From the NCBI RefSeq assembly GCF_007860125.1, contig NZ_SJPW01000001.1, positions 1,363,900 to 1,427,899 of the forward strand: a stretch of DNA of 64,000 bases, read 5' to 3'. Numbering within the stretch: position 1 is the stretch's first letter; each line of letters starts with the position of its first letter. Of the stretch, positions 24,501-51,880 are shown one piece after another. Origin of the DNA: Rubripirellula tenax (GTDB lineage Bacteria; Planctomycetota; Planctomycetia; Pirellulales; Pirellulaceae). Below the pieces are notes generated by a model. It did no database searches. It worked only from the letters and a program-made list of their open reading frames with translations, and was not told the origin of the DNA. The position numbers were made by a program, and so were the translations under genes.

Positions 24501-25204
24501 ACGAGGCCGTCCAAATCGGCGACGTCGTCACCGCATGGGTCACCGGCATTGACGAAAAACGTCGCCGCGTCGGCTTGAGCGCCATCTCGCCTGAGCGTGA
24601 ACTGGAGCTGGAAGAACAACGCCGAAACCGCGACACACGCCCATCGCACGGTGGAGGACAACGCAGCGGTCAACAACGTGGTGGAAACCGATCGGACGGA
24701 GGAAGCGGTGGCGATCGAGCGGCCGGGAATCGAGGTCAATCGACCGGGGCACCGAATCGTGACGCACGCCCTGCCCGCAGCGGCCAAGGCGGCGGTGGAA
24801 ACCGATCGGGCGGCAACCGAGGCGGCGGAGGCGGTCGCCCCAATGATCGCCGTGGCGGTTCGACGGGTGGCGGTCGCGGCAAGAAGCCCGAAACGTATCG
24901 CGTGGTCGCCAAGGCCGACGCCAAACCGCTGACCGACGCAATGCAGGACGGTAAAGAACCGCTGCGATCGTTCGGCGACCTGATGCAGTACTTCGGCAAA
25001 GACAAAAAGACGGTAACGGAAACGCCGAAGCCAGAACCATCGACCAAGAAAGATAAACCGGCCCCCGCGGCCGAAGAAGTCAAGGTGGATGCCAAAGTGG
25101 AGCCAACGCCGGAACCCAAATTAGAATCCGCGCCCAAACAAGACGCTGCACCCGAGCAGTCATCACCGGAAACTGCATCCCAAGCGGACACGCCTGAAGC
25201 ATGA
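21584..25204 (+). CDS. Tex-like RNA-binding protein with S1 domain and RGG tail
   Basis: 1206 residues, against about 770 for typical Tex. The order of parts follows Tex. An N-terminal helical domain (LPLLEQGYTPPFLARYRRDELGGLDE) is followed by a degenerate YqgF/RNase H-like domain at about 467-572 (VVMSIDAVGPRTAATTVV, DLIVISNGPARR). A Tex signature (FAVLQPAQSMAKVDPLKLRL), an HhH region (about 646-692) and an S1 domain (about 932-1005, GDAVIGVVVGVMPFGVFVEL) come next. Two Ala/Pro/Thr/Glu-rich linkers (about 205-325 and 744-872) interrupt this order, the first after a poly-Lys run. A Gly/Arg-rich RGG tail follows S1, and the C-terminus is Lys/Glu/Pro-rich. Probably a transcription or RNA-processing factor. 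It is coupled to the next gene by an ATGA overlap. Confidence 0.85.
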   Translation: MSVDLEAIAQRGRCEISSLRLALPLLEQGYTPPFLARYRRDELGGLDESSLWGLSSAVQTEKQIADKREHLREIWQATSLQDPAIGYAIGKANSIRMLSRLARRLKHESSEPPTDATRLAVRVLNPSKGDGSDFATIASNVEGIESVDAAFEDLDNALVQRLAGDPRVISAAVRWLAKNARIHIAKISDPHVSGEDEDAPKAKKKKKKKAKPAETDAAATAPTAVAPTAETGTEAVATPETVATPKTEATPETEATPVADVTAEAAATQEPIAETPEVAAVDPAVETPAVAETPPATEAVAPATESPAEGQTETPVGFAADTEAEKPAVVVKANQAAKKPKKISPRQRRRRWLVGVLKPLQGKRFTSDKLSSFQLVMLGRALRSQVAECSFEYDAGKLVAELQRTAAGFNHHLEDQMRDIVLQNEASIREAAEIAWWDDVQERASARLVAITADHLRRHVNRGPVDAKVVMSIDAVGPRTAATTVVSADGRVLHTEDLPCQLSASQRGQAVARMGELIHTHHVDLIVISNGPARRATMIALGDLIAASPEKSIRWTLADRSGADAYSGSSVSDQEMRSTPRRFRAAAWLAFAVLQPAQSMAKVDPLKLRLSSFQRELADEALAETLEDVMVSGASRGGVDANSAPQSWLRRLPGLTPDVASAIDKARRQELFTSREKISEIANWPSAVESRQSLPFLRVFGSTESLDGTLIHPDDYPLAKKLASTLGLELPPATPPGYIVPDFTSGATTEEIKPIEVATTAKPTVVEDFTASGEKSPDFTMPTESAEEPVAASQTEDATDGATQASAEVTQEVAPSEPAADETSAVEETPAGETPTAEPATAESPATESPADASATVDTNATVDTSATVDSMRQPRPERAKVDKCVKEWQIGTRRAHQIVHWLCDPFGDSDASGSPPAVLSTMPSTKSLRPGDAVIGVVVGVMPFGVFVELAPDCSGLIHVSRVSDSYVEDLHEAVQIGDVVTAWVTGIDEKRRRVGLSAISPERELELEEQRRNRDTRPSHGGGQRSGQQRGGNRSDGGSGGDRAAGNRGQSTGAPNRDARPARSGQGGGGNRSGGNRGGGGGRPNDRRGGSTGGGRGKKPETYRVVAKADAKPLTDAMQDGKEPLRSFGDLMQYFGKDKKTVTETPKPEPSTKKDKPAPAAEEVKVDAKVEPTPEPKLESAPKQDAAPEQSSPETASQADTPEA

Positions 25205-25695
25205 GTGACGACTTCGATTCACGACTAGAATCTGCCATCTCGCGTGGGCAGAAACGAGCCGATCAGAAAGCGTCGGCCGAGCGTGCCAAAGAGATGAGCG
25301 AAGATGAGATGCGACGGATGCACACGTCGCTTCGGCTGTCGCTGTCCGAGCGTATCGAACGTGCCGTCCACAAAGTGGCAGATCACTTCCCCGGTTTCCG
25401 CGAGGAATCACTGTTCGGCGAAGTCGGCTGGGGTGCGGCGTGCTATCGCGATGACTTGAAAATCGTTTCTGGTCGGCGCGAGAACCAATACAGTCGCTTG
25501 GAAATGATGATCCGCCCGTACAGCGATTCGCGAGTGCTGGACTTGAAGGGCAAAGGGACAGTCATGAACCGAGAACTGTTCAACCGATCTTTCTTTGTAC
25601 CGATCGCCGAAGCCGACTCGGAAGAGTTCGAGCAACTGATCGACACCTGGGCGATCGAGTATGCCGAGGTCTACGCCGCCAAGACGCGGGCGTAA
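25201..25695 (+). CDS. Conserved hypothetical protein translated with the Tex-like gene
   Basis: 164 residues, starting in the ATGA overlap with the Tex-like gene. The N-terminal half is a charged helix (SAISRGQKRADQKASAERAK, EMSEDEMRRMHTSLRLSLSE). The second half looks like a small alpha/beta domain (GWGAACYRDDLKIVSGRREN, LEMMIRPYSDSRVLDLKGKG). There is no signal or membrane segment, so it is probably cytoplasmic. Coupling suggests a partner of the Tex-like protein. The stop TAA is part of the 4-bp duplication flanking a mobile element that begins at the next base. The family is not recognised. Confidence 0.75.
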   Translation: MSDDFDSRLESAISRGQKRADQKASAERAKEMSEDEMRRMHTSLRLSLSERIERAVHKVADHFPGFREESLFGEVGWGAACYRDDLKIVSGRRENQYSRLEMMIRPYSDSRVLDLKGKGTVMNRELFNRSFFVPIAEADSEEFEQLIDTWAIEYAEVYAAKTRA

Positions 25696-25793
25696 CAGCC
25701 TGTTGAAAAAGGGGTCTGACCTTTGGAGACGTTGCTAAAACATTGTGAATTCGAAACGTCGGAGAGAGTCAGCCCCCCTTTTTTAGCAGGCTG
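25696..25793 (+). mobile_element. 98-bp palindromic element, copy A
   Basis: Starts CAGCCTGTTGAAAAAGGGG and ends with its near-complement ..TTTTTTAGCAGGCTG, giving terminal inverted repeats of about 26 bp around an asymmetric core. It is flanked on both sides by GTAA (25692-25695 and 25794-25797), a perfect 4-bp target duplication; the left copy contains the TAA stop of the preceding gene. The core is in the opposite orientation to the other three copies. One core base (CTAAAAC against CTGAAAC) has introduced a stop into the otherwise open frame. Confidence 0.88.
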
Positions 25794-25823
25794 GTAAGCC
25801 CGGGCGTCGCCGTTGCAGTAAAC

Positions 25824-28836: not shown

Positions 28837-31734
28837 ATGGCCCAACGCCCCAAACGTCTTCGCCAGCATCGCCTCGACATCCGCCGCCGATTGCACGTCG
28901 AACGATTGACCGATCGACGGGTGCTGGCCGCCATCACCGGTGCGGTTTTCGAAGATCTGAATCGATCGATGGCCCAGGACTCCGGCGAAGTCGCGGCGGC
29001 GGCTCGCTTGATCTACCTGGACACGAATGCCGACGGCCAATTGAACGCCGGCGAGTCACTGTCGTTGGCGGGGCCGGATGGAACATTCCGCTTCGATGAC
29101 TTGGCCGATGGCGAATACCGCGTCGCCCTGTACAACGCGGCCGCGACCCAGTCACAAACGTTCCCGGTCGATGCCCAAGCGTCGCCCGCCCTTGCCGTCG
29201 GCAATCAATTGACTGCCGCTGCAGCGCTGCCCGATGGACGCCAACTCGTCGTTGGATCCGACATCACCGGCGACCAGTCTTGGATTGTCGATGCGGATTC
29301 CGACACCGTGACGCCGCTGGCGTTTCACAACGGTGCCTTTGGCGTCACCGTTTCGGCGACCGGGTGGGGCCAATTGGCCATCGATGGTGACGGCAACGGA
29401 GTGATTCTGGAACACGTCGCAAACCCATCGTCGGCGGCCTCAATCCCGGTTCGCGCCGTCGATGCGACGAACGTCTTGTCGCGGATCGAAGTCACGACGA
29501 CAACCACTTCCGTGCCCGCCGACACTCAAGTCCTGTCGTCCGCCACGGGCGTGCGTTCAGTGTTCGCGTGGTCCAGCACGGACGGGCTAGAGCTATCGCT
29601 GTGGAGCAACGCGACATCCACATTGATCACCTCATCGCCGATCAACGTTCCCGCCGCGGTGGAATTATTGGCGTTCGATGACGCGGCGGGCTTGGTCGCC
29701 CTTCGATCGTCCGACGGCAGCGTCAGCATCCACGATGTCGACGGTAATTTTGCATCGCTGTATTCGATCACCGACGACATCGGTGCCATCACGATCGACG
29801 GCGAACGTGATCGACTGATGGCGTATTCGGCGGCCGATGCTGCATTGAAGGTCTTCCGATTGCAAGATGCCGATTTGATCGCCGAAATACCTTTGGATTT
29901 GTCCACGCTGGGCTCAGTCACCTCGATCGACATGGAACAGCAACCCGATGCGTTGATCGTCCTGGGCGATTCCGCTGTCCAACAAATCAAACTCGATCAA
30001 CCGACGTCACACCGTGTCACGATTGCTGCGGGTGCCGATGTCGGGGGCCTAAAATTCGGTGTTGTAGTGGCGGGTGCCAACGCGGCGCCGACCTATTCCC
30101 AGTTGCCGATTTTTTCCGCGGTCGAAGACCAAACGCTCAATCGCGACGCACCGCGAGCGCTCGTCGGTTCGTCGGATGTCGACGGCGACGCCTATGTTTT
30201 GGTTCAAACGGGCGCGGCCGCCAACGGCATTGCCGAATTCCGAACCGATGGCTCGCTGACTTACACGCCATCGGCCGATTTCAACGGCGCCGATTCGGTG
30301 ACGGTCGTGTTGCATGATGGCCAATCGGTTTCCGAGGCTTACACGTTGACCATCAATGTCGCCCCGGTGGCCGATCCGCCCATCGACATCAACGTCGATA
30401 TCGGTCCGATCCGCGAAGACATCGCCGCCGGCACGCCCATCGGAACGGTCGAAGTGATCGATGTGGACGGTGGTGGACACATCATCGCGATCGATGATCC
30501 ACGTTTCGGCGAACAGAATGGCCAGATCATTTTCATCGGCGGAGACATCAACTTCGAAAACGAGCGACTCATCCCGCTGATCATCACTGGCACCGACCCC
30601 GAGACGGGCGAAACGATTTCAGAGAATGCGTCCGTTCAAGTCACCGACGCGAATGATCCGATCACGGGCATCACTCCCACCGAAGCGTTCGTGTTTGAAA
30701 ATGCCCCCGGTGACATCGTCACTGAATTGAAGGTACTGGACGAAGACGAGGAACAGTTTCACACGTTCACCGTCGACGACCCCCGGTTCATCGTCGACAG
30801 CTATGACTTGCGTTTGGCCGATGGCGTCGCCGTCGACTATGAAACCGAACGCGAGATCATCGTTCGCGTGACGGCGACGGAATTCGGCACCGGCGGCACT
30901 TACACTGAAACGATCACGATCACGGTCCGGGATCTCCCCGAGCAACCGTCGACGCTGGCGCTGACCGATCACGCGGTCGTCGAATTGACACTCGGCGATG
31001 TCGCCGGCGACGTGTTGATTGATGGCAGCACACCCGATCCACGTTTCGACTTGACCGTCGACGACCAACGATTTGAAATCGAAGGCACGACGCTGAAATT
31101 GAAAGAGGACGTATTTGTCGAACTGGCCGTCCAATCGGAAATCCAAGTCGTGATCACGGCAACGGATTCACAAGGCGAGTTCGCGTCGATCGAGCGAACC
31201 TTCATCATCGCGGTACTTCCCAACGAAACGCCGTTGCACAACCGCAACGATCCCTTCGACGTCGACCACGGCGGATCGGTGACGGCCGCCGATGCGTTGG
31301 CGATCATCAACTACTTAAACGTTTATGGACCGGGTCCAGTGGGATCGGGCGGCATGGGCTTTTGTTACGACGTCAACGCCGACGGCTTCATCACTGCGTT
31401 GGATGTTTTGTTGGTTCTCAATCGGCTAGATGAATTGCCCAGCGGAACCGTGGGCGGTGAAGGCGAAGGCGAACAAATCCCTGCACCGGAGCAACAAACG
31501 CCCATTCAACAGAGACTTGACCAACCGACCGGCGGGCTTCAAATCGCCGTCGATTCCAGCACGCCCGCGGCCGATTCGTCGCCCAATCAGCCGCGAGACG
31601 CGATGTTTGTCCAGTGGCAGCGTGACTTGTCCCGCGACGACGACGCGATTGCCTCATGGGCGAATAACGATTCCGTCGCCTCGACTGCTGATGTGGACGA
31701 ATCACTGCGTTTGTTGAGCGACGAGAACGCATAG
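28837..31734 (+). CDS. Large secreted cadherin/Tandem-95-type protein with dockerin-like end
   Basis: 965 residues. The N-terminus has the planctomycete LEPR-XLL-like sorting motif in the form RRRLHVERLTDRRVLAA rather than a normal signal peptide. A SdrD-like segment follows (LIYLDTNADGQLNAGESLSL). Then come beta-propeller-like strands (about 110-400), a Tandem-95/VCBS repeat (SSDVDGDAYVLVQTG, LTYTPSADFNGADSVTVVLH) and two or three cadherin-like repeats (DPRFIVDSYDLRL, DYETEREIIVRVTATE). Near the C-terminus are two dockerin-type calcium loops (DVDHGGSVTAADALAIINYL and DVNADGFITALDVLLVLNRL). Probably an extracellular adhesin or structural protein. The stop TAG touches mobile element copy B. 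Confidence 0.85.
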   Translation: MAQRPKRLRQHRLDIRRRLHVERLTDRRVLAAITGAVFEDLNRSMAQDSGEVAAAARLIYLDTNADGQLNAGESLSLAGPDGTFRFDDLADGEYRVALYNAAATQSQTFPVDAQASPALAVGNQLTAAAALPDGRQLVVGSDITGDQSWIVDADSDTVTPLAFHNGAFGVTVSATGWGQLAIDGDGNGVILEHVANPSSAASIPVRAVDATNVLSRIEVTTTTTSVPADTQVLSSATGVRSVFAWSSTDGLELSLWSNATSTLITSSPINVPAAVELLAFDDAAGLVALRSSDGSVSIHDVDGNFASLYSITDDIGAITIDGERDRLMAYSAADAALKVFRLQDADLIAEIPLDLSTLGSVTSIDMEQQPDALIVLGDSAVQQIKLDQPTSHRVTIAAGADVGGLKFGVVVAGANAAPTYSQLPIFSAVEDQTLNRDAPRALVGSSDVDGDAYVLVQTGAAANGIAEFRTDGSLTYTPSADFNGADSVTVVLHDGQSVSEAYTLTINVAPVADPPIDINVDIGPIREDIAAGTPIGTVEVIDVDGGGHIIAIDDPRFGEQNGQIIFIGGDINFENERLIPLIITGTDPETGETISENASVQVTDANDPITGITPTEAFVFENAPGDIVTELKVLDEDEEQFHTFTVDDPRFIVDSYDLRLADGVAVDYETEREIIVRVTATEFGTGGTYTETITITVRDLPEQPSTLALTDHAVVELTLGDVAGDVLIDGSTPDPRFDLTVDDQRFEIEGTTLKLKEDVFVELAVQSEIQVVITATDSQGEFASIERTFIIAVLPNETPLHNRNDPFDVDHGGSVTAADALAIINYLNVYGPGPVGSGGMGFCYDVNADGFITALDVLLVLNRLDELPSGTVGGEGEGEQIPAPEQQTPIQQRLDQPTGGLQIAVDSSTPAADSSPNQPRDAMFVQWQRDLSRDDDAIASWANNDSVASTADVDESLRLLSDENA

Positions 31735-31832
31735 CAGACTGTTGAAAAAGGGGTCTGACCCTCTCCGACGTTTCGAATTCACAATGCTGCAGCAACGTCT
31801 CCAAAGGGTCAGACCCCTTTTTCAACAGGCTG
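31735..31832 (-). mobile_element. 98-bp palindromic element, copy B
   Basis: Begins CAGACTGTTGAAAAAGGGG and ends CCTTTTTCAACAGGCTG, with the same length and core as copies A and C. Flanks are ATAG on the left and ACAG on the right, which fits a 4-bp duplication with one change. The left flank includes the TAG stop of the preceding gene. Both strands keep a 32-codon open frame through the element. Confidence 0.85.
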
Positions 31833-31971
31833 ACAGGGGCAAACCCCGCTTCCGAGCGGATCGCAGTTTGCCGGTGTCGCTCGGTTGCCTCCGCCGACGC
31901 GCTTCGGGGTATGATGTCCGGTGAATCGGCGCCCGCGCCGGGTTGTTCCCCCTCCCTCCATTGAGTCGACA

Positions 31972-40335: not shown

Positions 40336-41439
40336 TCACAAGCGAACCAGTGCAGCACCCCAAGTAAAGCCTGCGCCGAAGCCCATGAACAATACCAAGT
40401 CGCCTTCGTTGGCTCGGCCTTGCTGGATCGCCGCATAGAGAGCCATCGGAATCGAAGCGGCGGTCGTGTTGCCGTACTTCGCAATGTTATGCACGATCTT
40501 TTCGGGTGGGAGTCCCAGTTTTTCGGAAATGAATTCGTTGATGCGGACGTTGGCCTGATGGGGCACAACTAAATCAATGTCGTCCAGCGACACACCGTTT
40601 CGTGCCATGACCGACAATGCACATTCCGGCATCTTGCTGGTGGCCCAACGGAAGACCTGCTTTCCGTTCATCGACGGAAAGACGGCACGGTTGTCGATCA
40701 TCTCTTTCGTGATCCGGGGAATGCTGCCGCTCGCGGGAGCTTCCATCCACAGCTCTTTCGCGCCAACACCATCTGCATGGACTTCGACATCGATAACGCC
40801 TCTGTCCTCTTCCGTAGCAGCCTGTTGAAAAAGGGGGCTGACCCTCTCCGACGTTTCGAGTTCACAATGTTTCAGCAACGTCCCCAAAGGTTCAGCCCCC
40901 TTTTTCAACATGCTGGTAGGCCCGAGGATGGTTGCCGCAGCGCCGTCACCAAACAGAACGGCGATGTCGCGTCCTGCATCCGAGAAATCCAACGCGGTTG
41001 AATGAACCTCCGCGCCGACCAAGCAAACGCGTTCGTACATGCCACAACGAATCCAAGCATCCGCGATTTGCAAACCATAAAGGTAGCCGCTGCACTGGTT
41101 GCGGATATCAAGGGCGGGCACACCGGGCAGTTCAAGTTTATGACCGAGAAAACAGCCGCTGCCTGGAAAATCATGATCGGGTGAGAGCGTCGCGAAGATG
41201 ATCGCATCGATGTCTCGCACTTCGATGTTGGCTTTTTGACAGGCTTCTTGCACCGCAGGAACCGCCAAATCGCTGGGGGCAATTCCGGCATGTTCAATGA
41301 AACGACGCTCTTCGATTCCGGTCCGTTGGCGAATCCACTCGTCGCTGGTGTCGAACATTTCAGCCAACTCGTCGTTGGTGACGACTCTGCTGGGCACATA
41401 CTGTCCAACACCTAAAATCGCAGTTCTTGTCTTCGTCAT
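40336..41439 (-). CDS. fabH: 3-oxoacyl-ACP synthase III (FabH-like) carrying an in-frame mobile element
   Basis: Condensing enzyme that joins an acyl-CoA starter to malonyl-ACP. From the ATG at 41439 it has 367 residues; a normal FabH has about 320-335. The catalytic triad is intact: Cys116 (NQCSGYLYG), His294 (VPHQANVRI) and Asn324 (AKYGNTTAAS). The end FMGFGAGFTWGAALVRL is typical. Residues 176-209 are foreign: they are encoded by a 98-bp palindromic element plus its 4-bp duplication. Removing them restores GDGAAATILGPT-EEDRGVIDVE, a normal FabH junction. The insert falls after a strand, probably in a surface loop, so the enzyme may still work. The start overlaps the hotdog gene by an ATGA. 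Confidence 0.9.
   Translation of the reverse strand: MTKTRTAILGVGQYVPSRVVTNDELAEMFDTSDEWIRQRTGIEERRFIEHAGIAPSDLAVPAVQEACQKANIEVRDIDAIIFATLSPDHDFPGSGCFLGHKLELPGVPALDIRNQCSGYLYGLQIADAWIRCGMYERVCLVGAEVHSTALDFSDAGRDIAVLFGDGAAATILGPTSMLKKGAEPLGTLLKHCELETSERVSPLFQQAATEEDRGVIDVEVHADGVGAKELWMEAPASGSIPRITKEMIDNRAVFPSMNGKQVFRWATSKMPECALSVMARNGVSLDDIDLVVPHQANVRINEFISEKLGLPPEKIVHNIAKYGNTTAASIPMALYAAIQQGRANEGDLVLFMGFGAGFTWGAALVRL
40818..40915 (-). mobile_element. 98-bp palindromic element, copy C, inside fabH
   Basis: Bounded by GTAG on both sides (40814-40817 and 40916-40919), a perfect 4-bp target duplication. Element plus duplication is 102 bp, exactly 34 codons, and the fabH frame passes through without a stop. 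The inserted peptide starts SMLKKGAEPLGTLLKHCELE. Inverted ends and core match copies B and D in the same orientation. Confidence 0.92.
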
Positions 41440-41906
41440 CGAATCGGCCCCTTCCGATATCCTGGCGTGCGAATGGCAACACTGCACTGGATCCCTGCAC
41501 AGGGCGTCCCGTCGGTCAAATAGTAGGCGTACTCGAAAGTCGGTGTGCTACGTTCTTTCTCTTGCAGTTCTTTTTCAATCATCCGTTCCAACTCGATCGG
41601 AAATTCGAAACGCAATTCCAAGTCGGTTGTTCCTGCGCGTACGAAATCGATCGTTAGCTTTCGCGTCCAAGCGGCGTAGTTCGGATAGAGTTTGCCACAA
41701 GCGAGCGCAGCAACGGGGTCTGCCAGCGAAGCCATGAATCCGCCGAACATTGTGCCCTGTCGATTCCTGGCGGCTGCCGACAATGGCAGGAGCAAACGAA
41801 TGCTGCGCCAATCAGGCGACAGATGCAGAATTTTCACTTGCATCATCTTGAACGGCTCAAAATTCTCGAGCCGTTTGATTGCGCCACCTAGCTCGACATC
41901 TGTCAT
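41436..41906 (-). CDS. Hotdog-fold thioesterase-like protein (DUF4442-like)
   Basis: 156 residues. The segment GTMFGGFMASLADPVAALAC resembles the central helix of PaaI/DUF4442 hotdog proteins, followed by strands LTIDFVRAGTTDLELRFEF and FEYAYYLTDGTPCAGIQCSV. Members act on acyl-CoA or acyl-ACP thioesters. No catalytic residue can be assigned with certainty. It directly precedes fabH with a 4-bp overlap, so it is likely part of the same acyl-handling unit. Confidence 0.75.
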   Translation of the reverse strand: MTDVELGGAIKRLENFEPFKMMQVKILHLSPDWRSIRLLLPLSAAARNRQGTMFGGFMASLADPVAALACGKLYPNYAAWTRKLTIDFVRAGTTDLELRFEFPIELERMIEKELQEKERSTPTFEYAYYLTDGTPCAGIQCSVAIRTPGYRKGPIR

Positions 41907-42046
41907 TGAAGGTCCTTTCCTCTTCCGTGCGAAAACACAAATTTAGAAACTCAACCGTGCACCCGCTTCATACCGTGGCGTGTACCACCACAGAAGCCTG
42001 TCGAGCTTCAATTGTCTCAACTACTCTGTCAAGCTTGTCACACGCC

Positions 42047-42970
42047 TTAGAAAGATGGCAGGCCGGCGATGGGCATCTCAACCCGATAAAGTCCGGTGCG
42101 AGCGGTGGCGTACAACGTTTTGAGATCCGCTCCGGCAAACGTGACGTTCGACGGCTGCTCAGGAAACTCGATCAAGCCGACGGGTTTTCCAGCAGATGAG
42201 AAAATTTGGACTCCGAGCGAACTTGTGATGTAGACGTTGCCATCTTGATCCAACGTAAGCCCGTCTGCGCCGGTGATCTTCGTTGCTCCCTCGGGTTGCT
42301 TCAGCGTGCAGAACGTTCGCTCGCCGGAAAGCTTGCCGGGATGATCGATGTCGTAGACCAGCATCTCGGCTTGGTCACTCGGACCCACGTAAAGGTGTTT
42401 GCCGTCGGGTGATAGTCCAACACCATTGGGAACCTTCAAGTCGCCGGTCACGCGAGTCACCGTTCCCGAGTTGTCGGCGTAGTAGACGGCCAATACGGTT
42501 TGCGGCCATGGATCGGGAGCTCGATAGTGTGGATCCGTGAAATAGACCCCTCCATCGGCGTCGAATACCAAGTCGTTGGGCGCGTTGAACCGCTTGCCGT
42601 CGTGCTGTGCGACATACACTTCCGAGTTGCCGGTAACGGGATCGAACTGCGCGATCTGGCCTTCCATTTGGCATCCCAGCAGTTGCCCGTCGGCGGTCAT
42701 GATCAGACCGTTCGCCGTTCCCGAGTCGCTGGTTAGCGAACTGACCTTGTCGTCGCTGCCGAGGACGTGAATGGTATTCGTCTTGATATCCGTGAAGTAC
42801 AGCACGCCACGTTTGGAGTCCCAAGCCGGTCCCTCGGTGAACGAGAATCCATCGGCGACCTTCTCAACTTCGCCGACGGGACGAATCGTGCCATCCGGCG
42901 TCGCATCATCAGCAAAGGATTGGACGGTCCATCCCAATAGAAGCAGAAACAAAGTGAGTATCGATTTCAT
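42047..42970 (-). CDS. Exported SMP-30/gluconolactonase-family protein
   Basis: 307 residues with a signal peptide (MKSILTLFLLLLGWTVQSFA). A six-bladed propeller is suggested by the repeated strands FTEGPAWDSKRGVLYFTDI, APNDLVFDADGGVYFTDPHY, VPNGVGLSPDGKHLYVG and GADGLTLDQDGNVYITSS. The metal-site Glu (FTEGPAWD), Asn (NAPNDL) and Asp (GADGL) expected for SMP-30 lactonases are present. It hydrolyses sugar or other lactones in this family. It lies within the fatty-acid cluster, but mobile element D separates it from the upstream gene. Its inclusion in the operon is unsure. Confidence 0.87.
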   Translation of the reverse strand: MKSILTLFLLLLGWTVQSFADDATPDGTIRPVGEVEKVADGFSFTEGPAWDSKRGVLYFTDIKTNTIHVLGSDDKVSSLTSDSGTANGLIMTADGQLLGCQMEGQIAQFDPVTGNSEVYVAQHDGKRFNAPNDLVFDADGGVYFTDPHYRAPDPWPQTVLAVYYADNSGTVTRVTGDLKVPNGVGLSPDGKHLYVGPSDQAEMLVYDIDHPGKLSGERTFCTLKQPEGATKITGADGLTLDQDGNVYITSSLGVQIFSSAGKPVGLIEFPEQPSNVTFAGADLKTLYATARTGLYRVEMPIAGLPSF

Positions 42971-43020
42971 CGGTGTATCTCTTTCGACGTGAGGTTTAAG
43001 TTTGAGAGCTTCATTTCTAG

Positions 43021-43116
43021 CAGCCTGTTGAAAAGGGGTCTGATCCTCTCTGACGTTTCGAATTCACAATGTTGCAGCAACGTCTCCAAAGGGTCAGCCC
43101 CCTTTTCAACAGGCTG
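43021..43116 (-). mobile_element. Palindromic element, copy D (96 bp)
   Basis: Same ends and core as copies A-C but with one base less in each A/T run of the inverted repeats. Flanks are CTAG on the left and CTAA on the right. The right flank includes the TAG stop of the minus-strand gene at 43117. The shorter length means it would not preserve frame (96+4=100), consistent with its intergenic position. Confidence 0.85.
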
Positions 43117-44100
43117 CTAATGATTGCGCAGTTCGTCGTAGATTTCGGCAACGGACATCACGTTGTCGATCTTTTCAACACTCTTACCGGCCTGGAAAAA
43201 TTTCTTGTAGCTGGCTCCCTTCAAGTTGGATTTTTTCAACGTCAAAAGCGAGACAAGCATGTAGTACGATCGCATCCAATGCTTCGTCCGGCGACCTTGG
43301 AGCATCTTTCTCGCAAGCCAACCTGCCTTCAGCCCCATTCGCTGAATGTACGGCGTGTTGATCACCGACACGGGCACTCCCGAAATTTTATCCGTCAACA
43401 CGATGTCGGTCGCCTTTGCTTCGATGATCGCGTCTTTATAGTCCGCATGCACCTCTGCCTCTCGACTGGCGATGAATCGTGTTCCCATCTGCACCCCTAG
43501 GTAGCCAATATCCAAAGCCTCGTGAAAGCCTTCGCGATCGGCGACGCCTCCGGCACAAATCGTCGGCTTCCCAAGCGGCGCGATTTCGTCGAATAAGCTA
43601 CGAGGATCAAGCTCGCCTGCGTGCCCGCCCGCGCGATCGTTCACGCAAATAAAACCGTCCACGCCGTTGTCAAGCGCCTTGCGAGCGTGCTTCACATTGG
43701 TCACATCGTGAAAAACAATGCCGCCAACTTGATTCGCTTTGTCAACCACCCAGCGAGGATTCCCGAGCGCGGTGACAAAGAAACGAACGCCCTCTTCCAA
43801 TGAAATATCCATCCACTGGTCCAGTCGCTTGCGATAGGTTGCGTTGCTTCCTTCCACCAGCATATTGACTCCGATTGGCTGGCTGGTCAGATCCCGGATC
43901 CGGCGCAGCCCCTCGCGATATTCATAGCCGTAGACATACGTCAGACTGATTGGCTGGACGATCCCGATGCCGCCTGCCTCCGACGCCGCCGCAACCAGTT
44001 CGGGGTTGGAACATGGATACATGGCCCCGCAAATCGCCGGAAACTGGATGCAGACCAACCGCGTGAACTCGTTTTCGTTTGGATTCAATTCATTGCTCAT
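43117..44100 (-). CDS. Nitronate monooxygenase-like FMN flavoprotein
   Basis: 327 residues from the ATG at 44100, which overlaps the upstream stop (ATGA). TIM-barrel signatures of the NMO/2-nitropropane dioxygenase family are present: FPAICGAMYPCSNPELVAAA, EAGGIGIVQP, IGVNMLVEG, VNDRAGGHAGE, PTICAGGVADREGF, LGVQMGTRF. The GGHAG motif corresponds to the family's active-site region. Such proteins often sit in fatty-acid or polyketide clusters (FabK-like enoyl reductases share the fold), so an enoyl-reducing role here is possible. Third to sixth position in the fad-like operon. Confidence 0.85.
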   Translation of the reverse strand: MSNELNPNENEFTRLVCIQFPAICGAMYPCSNPELVAAASEAGGIGIVQPISLTYVYGYEYREGLRRIRDLTSQPIGVNMLVEGSNATYRKRLDQWMDISLEEGVRFFVTALGNPRWVVDKANQVGGIVFHDVTNVKHARKALDNGVDGFICVNDRAGGHAGELDPRSLFDEIAPLGKPTICAGGVADREGFHEALDIGYLGVQMGTRFIASREAEVHADYKDAIIEAKATDIVLTDKISGVPVSVINTPYIQRMGLKAGWLARKMLQGRRTKHWMRSYYMLVSLLTLKKSNLKGASYKKFFQAGKSVEKIDNVMSVAEIYDELRNH

Positions 44101-44582
44101 GTGGTCGTTTTCTCCGGGCCGATCACCCACAACGCAGAAACCACCGACACGATGTCCCCGGATTCGTCACGAATCTCGGCTTGAATCGTGTGTTCGGCAT
44201 TCTCGCTTGGGCTAGTGATGTCGCAACGACACGTGCTGGTCAGCAGCCCGCGTGCTTTCTTGTCGTAAGAGGCTTCCATGCGACGAAGAATGCAGCGAGT
44301 GTTCGGCGGCAGTCCCGAAACGACGGCAAGACCGGTGGTCAGCTCGCCAAGGTTCGCGATCGCAATCGCATGCACGCTACGCAAATGGTTGCGGACCTTC
44401 TTACGATCTTTCAGTGTTAGACGAACATAGCCGGGACGAAGCTCTTCGACGCGGGCACCGATGCTGCCTGAATACCGCACGAACCTGCCAACGGCCAAGC
44501 TGAACAAGAACTTTCCGCCAGGCTTCGTTTCGAGCACATTCCAATAGCCCAGCAGACGTTGGCCGAGAGAACGCTTACTCAT
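44097..44582 (-). CDS. DUF4442 hotdog-fold protein
   Basis: 161 residues. It reads LLGYWNVLETKPGGKFLFSL at the N-terminus. Then follow VEELRPGYVRLTLKDRKKVR, NHLRSVHAIAIANLGELTTG and the strands of a single hotdog domain, the usual DUF4442 pattern. The NH-SVH-IA-NLGE stretch corresponds to the substrate-binding helix. Probably an acyl-CoA thioesterase or binding protein. It overlaps both neighbours by 4 bp (ATGA), so translation is coupled on both sides. Confidence 0.85.
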   Translation of the reverse strand: MSKRSLGQRLLGYWNVLETKPGGKFLFSLAVGRFVRYSGSIGARVEELRPGYVRLTLKDRKKVRNHLRSVHAIAIANLGELTTGLAVVSGLPPNTRCILRRMEASYDKKARGLLTSTCRCDITSPSENAEHTIQAEIRDESGDIVSVVSALWVIGPEKTTT

Positions 44583-46435
44583 ACGATTTCATCTTCCATC
44601 CATTCGAATTCGCCTTGCATGAATTGCTTGTTCAGCTTCACTGTGGCTTTGTCGTTATTGGAACCGATATCACGAAAGAGTTGGTCGATACGACGCTGTG
44701 CTTCGCGGCAATAGTAATCGGCCAAGTCCGGCGCGCCTGCACCTTCGTCCGATTGGCTGGACAGCAAACTGTGTGCATACGAACAAGCTGCCGACATGAT
44801 AAAAAGCTCTGTCCCGATCTGTACGAACCGGTTGATCAACAACTGTTTCTCAGCCATCTTCTTTTGGTGGACGGCCATTTTATGGAACAGCACTCGCGAC
44901 ATCTTTTTGCTCAGTCTCGCCACGGTTCTCATGTGCTTGTTTAGCGGCGGCGACATTCCGAAATGACCCGACGATAAGACGGGCAGCCACAATTTTGGAT
45001 ACCAGAGTGAGTAAGTTTTGGTCATGTTCAGCAGTGCGCTGACTTTCCCGCCCATCGTAATCCCAGGCTTGAACAGGGCTCCGATGTGCTGCAGGTGAAA
45101 ATCCAGTGCTTCGCGAGCAATGAAGAGATGCATGATCTCCGTGGACCCTTCAAAGATCAGGTTGACTCGCGAATCTCGTAGTGCACGCTCGATCGGGATT
45201 CCCTCTTGGCCGCGAGCTTTGAGCGAGTCAGCGGTTTCAAATCCGCGACCGCCTCGAATCTGTAGCGTTTCCTGCAATATCGCGTAGTGGGCTTCGGTGT
45301 TGAACAGCTTGGCCACGGCGGCTTCCAGCCGAATATCAAAACGCTTGTTGTCAGCCATCGACGACGCCAGCTTCCAGACGGCGTCCATCGCAAACGTATC
45401 CGAAGCGATCTTGGCCTGTTTGCCGGCAATCGTCTCGTGCTCGCCGATCGGATGCCCCCATTGCACGCGTTCGTTCGACCACTTTCGAATGATCTTCATG
45501 CACCACTTGCTGTTACCCGTACACGCCGCGGGAATCGACAGACGTCCTGTGTTCAGTGTTTGAAGGGCCAGTCGTAGTCCATCGCCCTCACCAAGCAACA
45601 TATTCTCTTTCGGAACTTTGACCTCGGTAAAACGGATGACGCCGTTGTAGAGCGCCTTCAGGCCCATAAAGCGACAGCGATGAACGACTTCAACACCGGG
45701 CGTGTTCATCTCGACGATGAACGCCGTAATCTGCTTGCGTTCTTTTCCTCGAACAACTTTCGGAGCCGTGACCGCCATCAAGATGATCAGATCCGCCTTG
45801 GTGCCATTGGTACACCACAATTTCTCGCCACTTATGACGTAATGCGAACCGTCTTCGCTAAGCGTCGCGCTCGTCGTCATCGCGCGCGGATCCGAACCGG
45901 CGTCTTCTTCGGTCAATGCGAACGCGGAAATCGCGCCTTCGCGAAAACGCGGCAGATACTTGCGTTTCTGATCGTCGGTGCCAAACATCAGAAGCGGTTG
46001 CGGAACACCGATGCTTTGATGTGCGGACAGAAGTGCGCACAAGTTTCCGCAGTAGCTACCGGCAAGGTGCAGGACGCGGTTGTAATTGACCTGACTCAGT
46101 CCCAAGCCGTTGTATTCTTTGGGAATTTTCATTGCGAAGCACCCCATATCCGCGAGGCCCTTCAACACATCGTCGGGTATTTCGCCCGTTCGATCGACGG
46201 CATCCGCATCGAGGTGTTCTTCAATGAACTTCTGAAAATTCGCGATAAATTCATCGCCGATTTTCTTGTCTTCGATTGGCTGCTGAGGAAAGGGATGCAG
46301 CAAATCCCATTTGACATTCCCTTGGTAGAGCAGCGCTGAATAACTTGGGTGCTGCCACTCAGTGTCGCGTGAATCCTCGGCGAATTCCATGGATGCGCGA
46401 GCTTCTTTTCCCATGCTTTTATCGTACAAGCTCAT
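44579..46435 (-). CDS. Acyl-CoA dehydrogenase, long (VLCAD-like) form
   Basis: Flavoprotein catalysing the first oxidation step of beta-oxidation. The 618 residues are longer than the usual 380-400 and fit the VLCAD/ACAD9-like type with an extra C-terminal helical domain. FAD and substrate motifs are FALTEEDAGSDPRAM and GEKLWCTNGTKADL. The C-terminal ACAD core has LQIRGGRGFETA and RVNLIFEGSTEIMHLF, where the Glu of FEGSTE is the expected catalytic-base region. ATGA overlaps join it to the FadJ-like gene upstream and the DUF4442 gene downstream. Confidence 0.93.
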   Translation of the reverse strand: MSLYDKSMGKEARASMEFAEDSRDTEWQHPSYSALLYQGNVKWDLLHPFPQQPIEDKKIGDEFIANFQKFIEEHLDADAVDRTGEIPDDVLKGLADMGCFAMKIPKEYNGLGLSQVNYNRVLHLAGSYCGNLCALLSAHQSIGVPQPLLMFGTDDQKRKYLPRFREGAISAFALTEEDAGSDPRAMTTSATLSEDGSHYVISGEKLWCTNGTKADLIILMAVTAPKVVRGKERKQITAFIVEMNTPGVEVVHRCRFMGLKALYNGVIRFTEVKVPKENMLLGEGDGLRLALQTLNTGRLSIPAACTGNSKWCMKIIRKWSNERVQWGHPIGEHETIAGKQAKIASDTFAMDAVWKLASSMADNKRFDIRLEAAVAKLFNTEAHYAILQETLQIRGGRGFETADSLKARGQEGIPIERALRDSRVNLIFEGSTEIMHLFIAREALDFHLQHIGALFKPGITMGGKVSALLNMTKTYSLWYPKLWLPVLSSGHFGMSPPLNKHMRTVARLSKKMSRVLFHKMAVHQKKMAEKQLLINRFVQIGTELFIMSAACSYAHSLLSSQSDEGAGAPDLADYYCREAQRRIDQLFRDIGSNNDKATVKLNKQFMQGEFEWMEDEIV

Positions 46436-48585
46436 GATGTACCTTCATTGTTGGTTGGGGCGTAGAAGTTGACGCCGCTGTCGGCCATCTTCTGCAAGAG
46501 TCCGCTCGGCTCGAAACGCTGCTGATCAAACTGCGTTTGAAACGCCCGCAAGTCAGCCAAAATGTTTTTCACACCGACACTGTCGGCATATTTCAACAGT
46601 CCACCGCGGAAGGGCGGAAAACCGGTTCCGTAGATCATGCCCACATCAATCGTCGCCGCCGCATCCACGACGCCTTCCTCCAAACATCGCGAAGCCTCAT
46701 TGATCATCGTGTAGATCAGACGCTTCGTTGCGACCTCATCACTGTGCTTGAAGTCGGCGCTCGGACGCATGCCTAGAACCTTCGGGTTCACGGATGCTTT
46801 CTTGCCCTTGTGGACATAGAAACCGCTGCCCGATTTCTTCCCAAAGATGCCCGCGTTGTCGACGTCGGATAGGACGGGAGCGACTCTCATCCTGGGTCCG
46901 TACGCGGTTTCTAAGATCTGTGCCACGTGGAAACCGACGTCGATGCCCACTTCGTCGGCAAGCTCAAGAGGTCCCATCGGCATTCCGAAACCCTTTACGA
47001 TCTTGTCCAGTCGCTCGGGCTCGATCCCTTCTTGAAACAGGTAGGCGGCCTCGTTCATGTAGGGGAGCAAGATTCGGTTGACGATGAATCCTTCTTTGTC
47101 GCCAACCACAATCGGCATCTTTCCCAACTGTCTCGCAAACGCGACGGCGATCACGATCGTTTCGTCGCTCGTCTTGTCCGTCTTGATGATTTCGAGGAGC
47201 GGCATCCGATGCACTGGATTGAAAAAGTGAAAGCCGCAAACCTTTTCCGGACGGTTGGTACTTTCGGCAATCTCGGTCACTCGCAACGACGACGTGTTCG
47301 TAAAGAGACAAGCGTTTGGCTGGACGACTTCATCGAGCTCCTTGAACACTTGCTGCTTCACATCCATTCGCTCCACAACCGCCTCGATCACCAAATCAAC
47401 GTTCCCAAAACCAGCGTACGTTGTGGTCGGTGAAATCAAACTCATTTGAGCATCGACTTGCCCCTGCTTCATCCGACGCGTTTTGATTTGATAGGCGTAT
47501 AATTTCTTGGCCGTCTTGAGTGCGAGGGCCAGCGCTCCGTAATTGAGATCTTTGATGCGGCAGACAATATTTTTCTTGGCCAGCAACTGAGCGATGCCAC
47601 CGCCCATCACACCGGCGCCGACCACACCCACCTTTTCTACTTTCGCGGGAGGCGTCGTCGCGTCCGTCCACGATCTTTTTCGGTACGCTTCATCCAGATA
47701 GAAGACGTGGATTAGGTTCTTCGAGATTTTGGTCACCGCCAACTTCCCAAGCCAATCGCTCTCGATCCTAGATGCCTCGGCGTGCGACTTACCCACCATC
47801 GCTTGGATCGCGTCGAGCGCAGCAAGTGGCGCCGGGTAGTGGCCGGAGGTGGTCTTCCATACGTTCTTGCGCGCCTGTCGGAACAAGATGCTGCGGCCGA
47901 TCGGGTTTCCTTCTAGCAGTTTCTCGACGAGCTTCGGCTTGCGCGTCTTCACCTTGTCCCGACCCGCCAAAATATTGCGTCCGAACTTCGACGCTTCATC
48001 GACGAGCACCGGATCGTAGAACAACCGTTCGACCAACCCCATTTTCAAAGCCGTGCGAGAGTCGACCAACTTCCCCGGTAAGATCATCGCCAACGCTTTT
48101 GAAATTCCGATCCGTTTTGGAAGGCGAACGCAGCCGCCGAATCCGGGCAGAATCCCGAGCTTGACTTCGGGTAGCCCGATCTTGATCGAATCGGCAAAGC
48201 CAGCAACGCGATAGTCACAAGCAAGTGAAAGCTCGTAGCCGCCACCGACGCAGGCCCCGTTGATCACAGCGATCGTGACCTGGGGAAGCTTTTCCAACTT
48301 GTCAAAGATTTGTTTTCCGAGTTCGCATTTATCGCTCGCATCTTGGGGGTCGCTCAATGATTCGATCTCCTTGATGTCGGCGCCGGCGATGAAGATTGAC
48401 TTCTTGGCGCTCGTGATCAGCAATACACGAACATGCTCAAGCGCAGCGATCGCGTCGAGTTGCTGGTCAAGTTCCTTCAGTGCATGACTACTGAGGATAT
48501 TTGCGTTGGAATCGGGAGTATCGAATTCCAGGATTCCGATTTCGTCGCGCTGCGTGAAGGTGAAGTGGTTGATCGTGTTTCTCAT
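46432..48585 (-). CDS. fadJ: Bifunctional enoyl-CoA hydratase/3-hydroxyacyl-CoA dehydrogenase (FadB/FadJ-like)
   Basis: 717 residues, the length of FadJ. The N-terminal crotonase domain carries the oxyanion and Glu motifs (FIAGADIKEI, GACVGGGYELSLACD, LPEVKLGILPGFGG). The NAD-binding domain starts VGVVGAGVMGGGIAQLL near residue 318, and the dehydrogenase core has NTSSLRVTEIAE and GFHFFNPVHRMPLLE. Together they hydrate and oxidise enoyl-CoA to 3-oxoacyl-CoA. Start overlaps nothing; the stop overlaps the acyl-CoA dehydrogenase start. A 156-bp gap to the thiolase gene upstream may hold an internal promoter. FadB versus FadJ is not decidable by eye. Confidence 0.93.
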   Translation of the reverse strand: MRNTINHFTFTQRDEIGILEFDTPDSNANILSSHALKELDQQLDAIAALEHVRVLLITSAKKSIFIAGADIKEIESLSDPQDASDKCELGKQIFDKLEKLPQVTIAVINGACVGGGYELSLACDYRVAGFADSIKIGLPEVKLGILPGFGGCVRLPKRIGISKALAMILPGKLVDSRTALKMGLVERLFYDPVLVDEASKFGRNILAGRDKVKTRKPKLVEKLLEGNPIGRSILFRQARKNVWKTTSGHYPAPLAALDAIQAMVGKSHAEASRIESDWLGKLAVTKISKNLIHVFYLDEAYRKRSWTDATTPPAKVEKVGVVGAGVMGGGIAQLLAKKNIVCRIKDLNYGALALALKTAKKLYAYQIKTRRMKQGQVDAQMSLISPTTTYAGFGNVDLVIEAVVERMDVKQQVFKELDEVVQPNACLFTNTSSLRVTEIAESTNRPEKVCGFHFFNPVHRMPLLEIIKTDKTSDETIVIAVAFARQLGKMPIVVGDKEGFIVNRILLPYMNEAAYLFQEGIEPERLDKIVKGFGMPMGPLELADEVGIDVGFHVAQILETAYGPRMRVAPVLSDVDNAGIFGKKSGSGFYVHKGKKASVNPKVLGMRPSADFKHSDEVATKRLIYTMINEASRCLEEGVVDAAATIDVGMIYGTGFPPFRGGLLKYADSVGVKNILADLRAFQTQFDQQRFEPSGLLQKMADSGVNFYAPTNNEGTS

Positions 48586-48741
48586 TCAATGTTGTGCGTT
48601 CGTTGGATGACAATCGGGGAATGTTTGTGTGATCCGTGGACCGTCAGGCACAGTTTTTTTGCATGCCACCGTTCGGTAAATACTCGGCCACTGACGCGGC
48701 GCGTCTTACACGGAAGTGAATTATTGTGTCACGAACCGGCT

Positions 48742-50025
48742 CTACACGCGTTCCAAAATCACAGCTCCGCCTTGACCACCGCCGATGCAAAGTGACACGA
48801 TCGCGTGCGAATCATTGCGTCGATTCAGTTCTCGCAGAGCTGTTAAAATCAGGCGATTCCCCGTCACGCCGACTGGATGGCCCAGCGCGATGGCACCGCC
48901 GTTGACGTTCAGCCTTTCGGGTTCGAGCCGGCCGATTGCTTGATCACGCCCCAGTTCTTGTTTCGCAAAGTCGTCCGATTCAATGAGCTTGACGCAGCCC
49001 AAGACTTGAGCCGCAAAGGCTTCGTTGATTTCCACGAACGACATCTGGTCGAGGCTCATTTGAGCCTTCTTGAGCGCGGTCGAAATTGCGTAGACGGGGC
49101 CGAGTCCCATCACGGCTGGGTCCAACCCTTCATACGCATAGGATTTGATATAGCCGAGTGGATTCATCCCCAATTCACGGGCCTTCGATTCTTTCATCAT
49201 CAGAACCGCACTGGCCCCGTCGGTCAGCGGGCAGGCATTACCGACCGTTACCGTTCCGCTATGCCGATCGAAATACGGCTTTAGCTTTGCCAAGGCCTGC
49301 AACGACTGTCCTTCACGCGGTCCATTGTCTTGCTCGCAAGTGCTGTCGTAGCCAGGCTCGACGGGGACGGGCATGATTTCTTCGGCCAGTTTGCTGCGAC
49401 TTGCAAGAGCCCGATCGTGGCTTTCGAGCGCAAACGCATCTTGTTCTTCACGCGTGATTCCACATCGCATGGCAATGTTCTCGGCCGTCTGCCCCATGTT
49501 CAAACCGCAGACCGGATCCGTCAAACCACAGACGACTCCAATCACCGGCTTCAAAAAGTGCGGACGAAACGAGGCGATCGTCTTCAGTTTCTGAAACGCC
49601 GTCTTCGATCGCATCAGGTTGGCGAACAGGCCGGTCATGTGTTTGTTGTAGATCAACGGGATGTTCGTCATCGACTCAGTACCACCCGCGATGACAACTT
49701 CCGCTGCACCGCTAATGATCTTTTCGTAGCCGCTGGTGACCGACTCGAACCCCGAGGCACAATTCCGCGAAATCGTGTACCCACGAGACCGATGGGGCAG
49801 TCCAGCCATCAGCGCGGCGACGCGGCCGACGTTGGCAGCATCGACGGGGTTCGCAACACAACCCAAAATCACCTCGTCGACCAATCCCGGATCGATCGAT
49901 GTCCGTTCCAGCAATTCACGGATCACTAGCGCAGCAAGTTTCTGAGCGGGGATGTCTTTGAGGTCAGTACCGGCTTTGCAGAATGGGGTTCGTATTCCGT
50001 CAACGATTGCTATTCGATCAGTCAT
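48742..50025 (-). CDS. fadI: Acetyl-CoA acyltransferase (thiolase, FadI-like)
   Basis: 427 residues from the ATG at 50025 (MTDRIAIVDGIRTPF). The nucleophilic Cys is Cys89 in SRNCASGFES. The second set of catalytic residues is in NGGAIALGHPVGVTGNR (His) and CIGGGQGGAVIL (Cys). Length and start resemble FadI rather than the shorter FadA. It cleaves 3-oxoacyl-CoA with CoA, the last step of each beta-oxidation round. The ATG lies 8 bp inside the acyl-CoA ligase gene. Confidence 0.93.
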   Translation of the reverse strand: MTDRIAIVDGIRTPFCKAGTDLKDIPAQKLAALVIRELLERTSIDPGLVDEVILGCVANPVDAANVGRVAALMAGLPHRSRGYTISRNCASGFESVTSGYEKIISGAAEVVIAGGTESMTNIPLIYNKHMTGLFANLMRSKTAFQKLKTIASFRPHFLKPVIGVVCGLTDPVCGLNMGQTAENIAMRCGITREEQDAFALESHDRALASRSKLAEEIMPVPVEPGYDSTCEQDNGPREGQSLQALAKLKPYFDRHSGTVTVGNACPLTDGASAVLMMKESKARELGMNPLGYIKSYAYEGLDPAVMGLGPVYAISTALKKAQMSLDQMSFVEINEAFAAQVLGCVKLIESDDFAKQELGRDQAIGRLEPERLNVNGGAIALGHPVGVTGNRLILTALRELNRRNDSHAIVSLCIGGGQGGAVILERV

Positions 50026-51880
50026 ATTGAACGTTGATTGCTCGCTTGGGTGATTCGGCATACAGATCTTCAATCTCAGGTACAAATTTTTCAGCGATCT
50101 TTCGACGTTGAAGTTTGAGCGTCGGTGTCAGCAATCCGTTGTCCTGAGAAAATGGATCAGCGACCAGAGTGAAACGCTTGATACGTTCAAAGTTCGAGAG
50201 GCCAGACATCCCCGTCGCGAGCGCCTTTCGCATGACTTCGGTGACGCAAAGATCGTCGACGGAAGGCGTTTCCGCCAGATCGAGCGATCGACCGATCGCG
50301 CCCAAGTCGGGAACCACCAGCGCCGCTGTGAATCGTCGGCGGTCACCGATCGCACAAGCGCTGATCACAAAAGGCGTGCTCTTCAATGCGTTTTCGACCG
50401 CCTGTGGAGCGACGTTTTTCCCAGTCGAAAGCACCAAGATCTCGCGCTTACGATCGACGATGGTTAAGTATCCATCTTCGTCCAGAGTGCCAATGTCGCC
50501 GGTGTGATACCAACCATCTGCGTCGAGTACCTGCGCCGTTTCTTCGGGTCGCTGCCAATACCCCTTCATCACGATCGGACCACGAACCAAGACTTCGCCG
50601 TCGCTAGCCAGCTTGATTTCGACGCCGGGAACACTCTGACCAACGGTTCCCGGTTTCATTGCCTTTGGAAAAGTCAGCGCTGCGGTGCAGGTCAACTCGG
50701 TGGCTCCGTAGCCTTCATAGACGGGTATGCCGATGCCCCAGAAAAACTCAATGCTTGTCCGGTTGCTGTTGGCCCCACCGGTCACGACCAACACAAGATT
50801 GCGACCCATTTTTTCGCGAATCTTCTGCAACACAATTCTGTCAAGAAGCCTGTTGATCGAGCCAAGTCGAACCTCGCCGACTGGCCCTCCATCACGGATC
50901 GCCGCCAAACGAGGCTGGCGACAACGCTTCAATGCCAGGAGCGCCAGGCTTCGCATGACGAAGCCCTTGGAGCGAATCGCAGCCATCGAGAGTTCTGTGA
51001 ATTTATCCAACAGCAGCGGGACGGTTGGAAACCCATGTGGCGAAACGTCGGCAAGGTTCGCGATCAGTTTTTCGCGAGCAGGCTCGGCGATGACCAATCG
51101 TCCACCCGAGAGCAAAGTCCCGGACACCGTCGTGTTTCTCGCCATCACATGGGCCAACGGCAAGTGCAGCAATATTGTCTTTTCGCGTTCAGTCAGCAGC
51201 TGCGAAATCGTATTGTCCGTGTTCGCAAGCAAATTAGCATGAGTCAGCATCACACCCTTGGGATCGCCAGTAGTGCCGCTGGTATAGAACAGTGCGGAGA
51301 GGTCGTCGGGACCGACCGGCGGCATTCGCAAGTGTTGTGCGATGTCCGGCTGCGCCTCCAATGCCCGCTTACTCTCCTCGATCACCGTGGCGAAGCATTC
51401 GCCAATCTTGCCTTCGTCTTCGGAAAAAACAGCGATGGCAAGGTCATAATCGGTAATCAATCCAGCAAGTCGCTGTTGGTTCGATAGAACCGCCTTGGCC
51501 TCAGAGTCGCGTAAGAGCGAGGCAGCTTGCGACGGAATCAACGTGTGGTAGATCGTTGTCGTGACCGCCCCAATCAGTTGTGCAGCGAGATCACAAACGA
51601 TCCAGGACCAACCGTTGTCTAGCCAGATCGCGACACGGTCCCCCTTGGTGATACCGCGATTCGAAAGTGCCAAACCGCATGCGATCACGCGACGTTCAAG
51701 TTCAGCAAAAGTAATGCATTGCCATTCACCGGCCTCTTTCCATTGCAAAGCGGGCAGCTCGGCGAAGCGTTCGGTAGCTTCGAGCAAGCGATGAGCATAT
51801 GAGTCACCTTGAGGATGGCTCGCGTTCATTGGCAACGCGCGGTGTCTGAGATCCGCGACGCTTTGGCTAGTCACACTCAT
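50018..51880 (-). CDS. Long-chain acyl-CoA synthetase (AMP-forming)
   Basis: 620-residue adenylate-forming ligase that activates fatty acids with ATP and CoA. Motifs: the P-loop YTSGTTGDPKGVMLTH, the adenine site GYGATELT, WYHTGDIG, and the hinge DRKREILVLSTGKNVAPQ. The usual lid domain follows. It resembles the FadD15-like long-chain group. First gene of the leftward cluster, transcribed away from the AraC-type regulator. A second ATG (51829) is also possible; I kept the first. It feeds acyl-CoA to the thiolase, FadJ and dehydrogenase encoded downstream. Confidence 0.92.
   Translation of the reverse strand: MSVTSQSVADLRHRALPMNASHPQGDSYAHRLLEATERFAELPALQWKEAGEWQCITFAELERRVIACGLALSNRGITKGDRVAIWLDNGWSWIVCDLAAQLIGAVTTTIYHTLIPSQAASLLRDSEAKAVLSNQQRLAGLITDYDLAIAVFSEDEGKIGECFATVIEESKRALEAQPDIAQHLRMPPVGPDDLSALFYTSGTTGDPKGVMLTHANLLANTDNTISQLLTEREKTILLHLPLAHVMARNTTVSGTLLSGGRLVIAEPAREKLIANLADVSPHGFPTVPLLLDKFTELSMAAIRSKGFVMRSLALLALKRCRQPRLAAIRDGGPVGEVRLGSINRLLDRIVLQKIREKMGRNLVLVVTGGANSNRTSIEFFWGIGIPVYEGYGATELTCTAALTFPKAMKPGTVGQSVPGVEIKLASDGEVLVRGPIVMKGYWQRPEETAQVLDADGWYHTGDIGTLDEDGYLTIVDRKREILVLSTGKNVAPQAVENALKSTPFVISACAIGDRRRFTAALVVPDLGAIGRSLDLAETPSVDDLCVTEVMRKALATGMSGLSNFERIKRFTLVADPFSQDNGLLTPTLKLQRRKIAEKFVPEIEDLYAESPKRAINVQYD

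Follow-up and report, generated by a model that had tools for sequence, protein, structure and literature searches.

An in-frame MITE insertion in a KAS III (FabH-like) gene of Rubripirellula tenax

The best-known mobile palindromes inserted in frame are those of Rickettsia, and the IS701 and IS5 groups are IS families with a 4-bp, YTAR-like target. According to an extract of PMC10969869, of the 44 integrations of Rickettsia palindromic elements (RPEs) initially described in R. conorii, nearly half lie in open reading frames (ORFs). The same extract describes in-frame MITE fusions as not unusual and the frequency of RPEs as unusually high. A second example is the enterobacterial repeats RU-1, RU-2, and RU-3, which are MITE-like, 103–168 bp long, and carry open frames fused to genes; in an extract of PMC2759123, none is reported within the conserved domains of superfamily proteins. 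The GTAG and CGTC REPs are palindromes that also occur within ORFs, and GTAG REPs often supply TAG stop codons (both from an extract of PMC3733652). REPs are described as 20–40 bp long with a constant tag. An extract of the Haloquadratum genome paper (PMC3119063) yielded nothing on in-frame MITEs. The kind of element described below is thus known; in the literature searched (planctomycete and Rhodopirellula MITEs, in-frame palindromic insertions), no published account of the R. tenax family or of the insert-bearing enzyme was found.

The locus lies in a window of 64,000 nucleotides of the R. tenax genome. Very probably, a MITE has inserted at a CTAC in a KAS III gene and is read through as a 34-residue, probably disordered loop, in an enzyme that most likely works, the family as a whole being placed where genes are spared. 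The initial annotation had recognized the geometry: an element of 98 bp plus a duplicated GTAG of 4 bp make 102 bp, exactly 34 codons, and the coordinates 40814–40919 hold to the base (Table 1). Removing one 102-bp unit restores the junction that it had given, ...ILGPTEEDRG..., and leaves 333 codons. The minus-strand reading frame of fabH is open across the whole element, and the inserted segment forms residues 176–209 of the protein. As RNA, the element folds into a hairpin of −55.8 kcal/mol (z −6.3). With up to 3 mismatches allowed, a 19-base pattern from the arm matches the window 5 times where 0.01 matches are expected, so the repeat is not due to chance. No Rfam family matched the window at the gathering threshold.

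Table 1. Coordinates of the fabH insertion, its host gene, and the other family copies, as positions in the window
Feature	Position	Strand	Remarks
KAS III (FabH-like) gene	40336..41439	-	367 codons, 34 of them from the insertion; TIGR00747, PF08545, PF08541
Left target-site duplication GTAG (CTAC on the coding strand)	40814..40817	.	Single CTAC at the SJ586 empty site
MITE, 98 bp, 6 differences from the family consensus	40818..40915	+	
Left terminal inverted repeat / hairpin arm	40818..40841	+	
Right terminal inverted repeat / hairpin arm	40892..40915	-	
Right target-site duplication GTAG	40916..40919	.	
Family copy L026, 96 bp	43021..43116	+	Right duplication holds the stop of nitronate monooxygenase gene 43117-44130 (PF03060)
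Family copy L019	31735..31832	+	Left duplication holds stop TAG 31732-31734 of dockerin/cadherin-domain gene 28837-31734
Family copy L147	25696..25793	-	Left duplication holds stop TAA 25693-25695 of ORF 25201-25695

The host gene belongs to the FabH/KAS III family by its profile and by its Cys-His-Asn triad. It scores 344.9 bits against the NCBIfam profile TIGR00747 (cut-off 292.1) and matches the two Pfam domains listed. The catalytic Cys116, His294, and Asn324, said in the initial annotation to remain, are indeed retained and are invariant across all 46 sequences of the alignment, among them the window protein. The start is most likely ATG 41439 rather than GTG 41487; the former overlaps by a few bases the stop of an upstream ORF (41436–41906, thioesterase-like). 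The gene is the last of an acyl-metabolism run (window 40336–51880) that is partly shared with the relative SJ586 introduced below. The run includes acyl-CoA synthetase-like, enoyl-CoA hydratase/3-hydroxyacyl-CoA dehydrogenase, acyl-CoA dehydrogenase, DUF4442, NMO, SGL, and thioesterase genes, its content being read outside 48586–50017, and it was possibly acquired. Since the insert-bearing fabH stands at the end of this run, it is probably not the housekeeping FabH; the genome holds two other FabH-like genes.

Evidence for an insertion can be provided by relatives that lack it. When genome contigs were scanned with the protein minus its insert, 55 loci were obtained, and 45 of them were aligned with the window protein (the others being L102, L116, L119, L122, L123, L124, L125, L127, L128, and L129). 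None of the 45 has more than three residues opposite the 34-residue insert. This is the alignment that the initial annotation had called for, and no relative without the element was found to share the 34 residues. The nearest relative, Pirellulaceae bacterium SJ586 (L075), is 92% identical. Its junction has one CTAC, whereas in the window a CTAC stands on each side of the element, and SJ586 therefore preserves the empty site. Two neighbours are common to SJ586 and the window, the NMO (89% identical) and the acyl-CoA dehydrogenase (94% identical); two small genes between the NMO and fabH in the window are missing from SJ586.

The next 21 loci are 70–79% identical and come from metagenome assemblies, of which 18 carry the label Myxococcales or Deltaproteobacteria. 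A search of 59 further genomes from the genus, family, and order gave one match at 1e-60 (38% identical), and matches at 1e-20 in another set of 35 genomes are 32–44% identical. No close fabH homologue was found in 21 same-genus genomes, several of them incomplete. Judged from these searches, the distribution of the gene is patchy, several of the assemblies behind that view being incomplete. The gene itself may have been acquired.

The element in fabH is a MITE. It is 98 bp long, has inverted-repeat arms of about 24 bp, contains no transposase gene, and is flanked by a target-site duplication, with many copies at unrelated sites. A 106-bp query against the R. tenax genome (7.99 Mb) gave 69 candidates, many places appearing on each of the two strands owing to the palindromic nature of the element. 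Forty copies were scored, so that the family occupies at least 40 distinct places. The length is exactly 98 bp in 27 of them. The 4-bp duplications are perfect in 24, have one mismatch in 11, and are worse in 5. The extended target is GCYTARGC, and one perfect duplication, CTGG, has no TA.

The GTAG at fabH could also be taken for the tag of a REP-type element, moved by a tyrosine transposase, an origin that is compatible with read-through. Such an element would be a palindrome with GTAG at its edge, as seen here, and GTAG REPs are likewise found in ORFs and supply stop codons (extract of PMC3733652). Against this, GTAG or CTAC is the perfect flank of just 3 of the 40 copies, which is not the constant tag of a GTAG REP, and the flanks are direct 4-bp duplications whose sequence varies among copies. 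Direct 4-bp target duplications are not known to result from REP transposition. A REP origin is very unlikely; the GTAG at fabH is a duplicated target rather than a fixed tag. The MITE reading implies a non-autonomous element moved by a transposase, probably of the DDE type, and duplication of the four bases of the CTAC site in the KAS III gene upon insertion.

The source of this transposase was sought in the same genome. No autonomous element with the same ends was found there at up to 2 mismatches, except for an IS4-family copy seemingly nested in a palindrome. Target size and sequence resemble those of the IS701 and IS5 groups. IS701 was rejected as parent, however, as the sole IS701-like copy found in the genome (L037) has other ends, and at L042, where half a MITE adjoins an IS701 relic, the junction seems to be due to chance. 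A 1.2-kb locus flanked by TIRs (L034), which resembled an autonomous parent, was also rejected, its five relatives in other genomes having variable outer sequence. Four of these five have direct repeats of 10–11 bp just outside the shared ends (arms read by eye), and the outer repeats of L034 itself agree only in part. From these comparisons, L034 reads as an IS4-family copy that landed in a palindrome of the same type. Its positions 497–1718 are an IS4-family element whose transposase frame is broken up. A plasmid carrier was not found either, there being no match in a plasmid collection.

The element is matched at 1e-5 in 6 of 199 same-family genomes, its own included. The outer end nTAR-CAGCCTGTTGAAAAA occurs with unrelated interiors at loci L170–L182 of other genomes of the same family. 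The outer end with other interiors recurs in a few more genomes, chiefly G103, G029, G167, and G165; in most other genomes, its matches are at the level of a reversed-pattern control. The recurrence suggests several MITE families that share one transposase specificity.

Where the copies lie is informative about how genes are affected. With a simple, home-made, codon-based gene caller, for which 28 ORFs of the window served as training set, 3 of the 40 copies are genic, 18 coincide with a stop codon, and 19 are intergenic. The window's three other copies (25692–25797, 31731–31836, and 43017–43120 with their duplications) all lie on stop codons. In L019 the other copy of the duplication differs by one base, and the ORF beside L147 has no Pfam family. 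A tandem 15-bp repeat is also present in the window, at 19134–19388 within ORF 18516–20234, where it encodes Asp-Ser-Lys-Pro-Ser units.

In all 18 stop-codon copies (for instance L004, L005, L014, and L018), the TAA or TAG of the gene-side duplication is the present stop of an ORF that is 131 codons or longer. Fifteen of these ORFs have a Pfam match, and in thymidylate synthase the match extends up to the last residue. The far duplication also holds TAA or TAG in 11 of the 18 and differs in seven (L005, L016, L019, L024, L027, L144, and L145). Copy L141, where the stop falls just before the duplication, was not counted. When sites are weighted by the target motif, 5.5% are expected on stops and about 75% in genes, compared with the 3 of 40 seen in genes. 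The share on stops exceeds that among all sites whether 18 of 40 (p 7e-13) or 11 of 40 (p 7e-6) are counted; relative to the non-genic share (22% of 37), 18 is an excess (0.0004) and 11 is not (0.18), all these values being approximate, given a home-made caller and a background that contains these very loci. Avoidance of genes by the family is clear, whereas a further preference for stop codons depends on the seven less certain copies.

The copies inside genes show a further regularity. The consensus has one stop-free phase on either strand, in which the TA straddles two codons, and 29 of the 40 copies can be read without a stop in both orientations. All three copies that the caller placed in genes (fabH, a membrane-protein gene, and a sulfatase gene) are in the open phase. 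Copy L009 places SSLLKKGSDPLRRFEFTMLQQRLQRVRPLFQQAAS mid-way in a membrane-protein ORF of 354 residues. Five of the six relatives of this ORF could be aligned, the sixth being dropped as too dissimilar; these five, four of them from the same genus, have 5–15 residues opposite 35 columns, in a variable linker. Copy L017 gives a peptide near the N-terminus of the sulfatase, where the N-termini of relatives vary too much for an insertion to be proved, and the sulfatase may use an internal start within the element. Like RPEs, the hairpin repeat is found in frame inside unrelated genes, those for fabH and the membrane protein, with the sulfatase as an N-terminal case. Selection for the open phase was considered as well; the case for it is weak, as about 25% of randomly generated palindromic 98-mers are open in both orientations.

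It is conceivable that the hairpin is never translated, either because ribosomes hop over it or because it is excised from the mRNA. Known bypassing elements generally have the shape of a strong hairpin between short direct repeats, and so does the fabH insertion. Yet hopping or excision needs no open phase, and all three genic copies are in it (about 0.04 by chance, at 1/3 each); the firm count is two of two (about 0.11, weak), as the sulfatase copy could start inside the element. An untranslated hairpin is extremely improbable. Under read-through, ribosomes would pass straight through the hairpin, which is possible because the element and its duplication measure 102 bp and one phase has no stops on either strand. 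The protein would gain 34 residues, probably as a disordered loop, in the segment that connects two strands.

The initial annotation had suggested mapping the insert on a structure. An AlphaFold2 model of the 367 residues, built from a 46-row alignment, keeps the FabH fold (pTM 0.88; pLDDT at least 90 in 302 of 367 residues) and puts the insert in an inter-strand connection, between strands 166–174 and 214–222. Residues 181–207 have pLDDT below 50 and are modelled as disordered. In a Foldseek search the top two matches are FabH structures, and PqsD and BioZ are also among the best 50 matches. The inserted residues are thus predicted to form, probably, a disordered loop that leaves the fold undisturbed, a prediction from which the tolerance of the real fold is not demonstrable.

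Constraint on the gene bears on whether the enzyme works. Compared with SJ586, dN is 0.037, dS 0.65, and dN/dS 0.056. Of 26 replacements, 10 fall on the window branch and 13 on the SJ586 branch, with 3 ambiguous (23 outgroup segments), so the window branch shows no acceleration. These values span the whole divergence from SJ586, most of which may precede the insertion. The share that follows it depends on when the six consensus differences of the fabH copy arose. Without constraint, about 47 replacements are expected if all six arose in place, about 24 if three did, and about 8 if one did, versus the 10 to 13 seen; in the last case the constraint test is uninformative. Constraint since the insertion is likely, judging from these counts, though not proved. 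All six differences alter the peptide when the consensus is read against the fabH copy, and for this reason nothing suggests selection on the inserted peptide itself.

The same data bear on a different history, in which fabH is a newly crippled paralogue that the insertion broke or weakened too recently for decay to be visible. The two other FabH-like genes could make such a loss tolerable, a copy 6/98 bases from its consensus may have inserted recently, and a hairpin of −55.8 kcal/mol in the message could lower expression. The frame is open, however, the triad is intact in 46 of 46 sequences, replacements are even on both branches, and the insert sits in an inter-strand connection with no predicted disturbance of the fold. 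This history is unlikely. Decay of fabH, which would have told against the initial annotation, is not seen: dN/dS is 0.056, there are no stops or frameshifts, and the core fold is modelled confidently. Its proposal that the gene tolerated an insertion that became a new protein segment is supported, at the level of sequence, by the lack of the insert in 45 relatives and of visible decay.

Across the genome, the family is located where genes are spared. Copies are found between genes, on stop codons, and in one stop-free phase inside genes; the TAA or TAG of the duplicated target would keep the gene's stop, selection would act as a filter on the position of copies, and the enzyme most likely still works. 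Placement on stop codons offers a simple explanation for the persistence of a mobile element in a compact genome whose genes stay unbroken. It is doubtful that the family has evolved to spare genes, its step of 102 bp, the one phase without stops on both strands, and the target GCYTARGC, itself often a stop codon, making coding insertions harmless, allowing spread in a gene-dense genome, and occasionally handing an enzyme a ready-made disordered segment.

The initial annotation had named RPEs as the closest parallel. The comparison is apt in the sense that the element appears to work like an RPE in its mode of insertion: both are short hairpin repeats found in frame in unrelated genes. It needs widening, as the element is a target-duplicating MITE to which RU elements and GTAG/CGTC REPs are also parallels. 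Unlike RPEs, the R. tenax family has clear inverted-repeat ends and a 4-bp target duplication, few genic copies (3/40), and many on stop codons; its host is not a rickettsia, and the nearest named relative is a Pirellulaceae genome. REPs differ from the R. tenax element in length, the latter having 98 bp, and in their constant tag, its duplicated target being variable. Unlike RU elements, the fabH insert lies within a conserved fold, that of KAS III. The locus adds a case from a lineage other than Rickettsia in which the steps of insertion are visible (empty site, duplication, copy family, and target), and its host protein is a conserved enzyme whose activity can be measured in forms having and lacking the segment.
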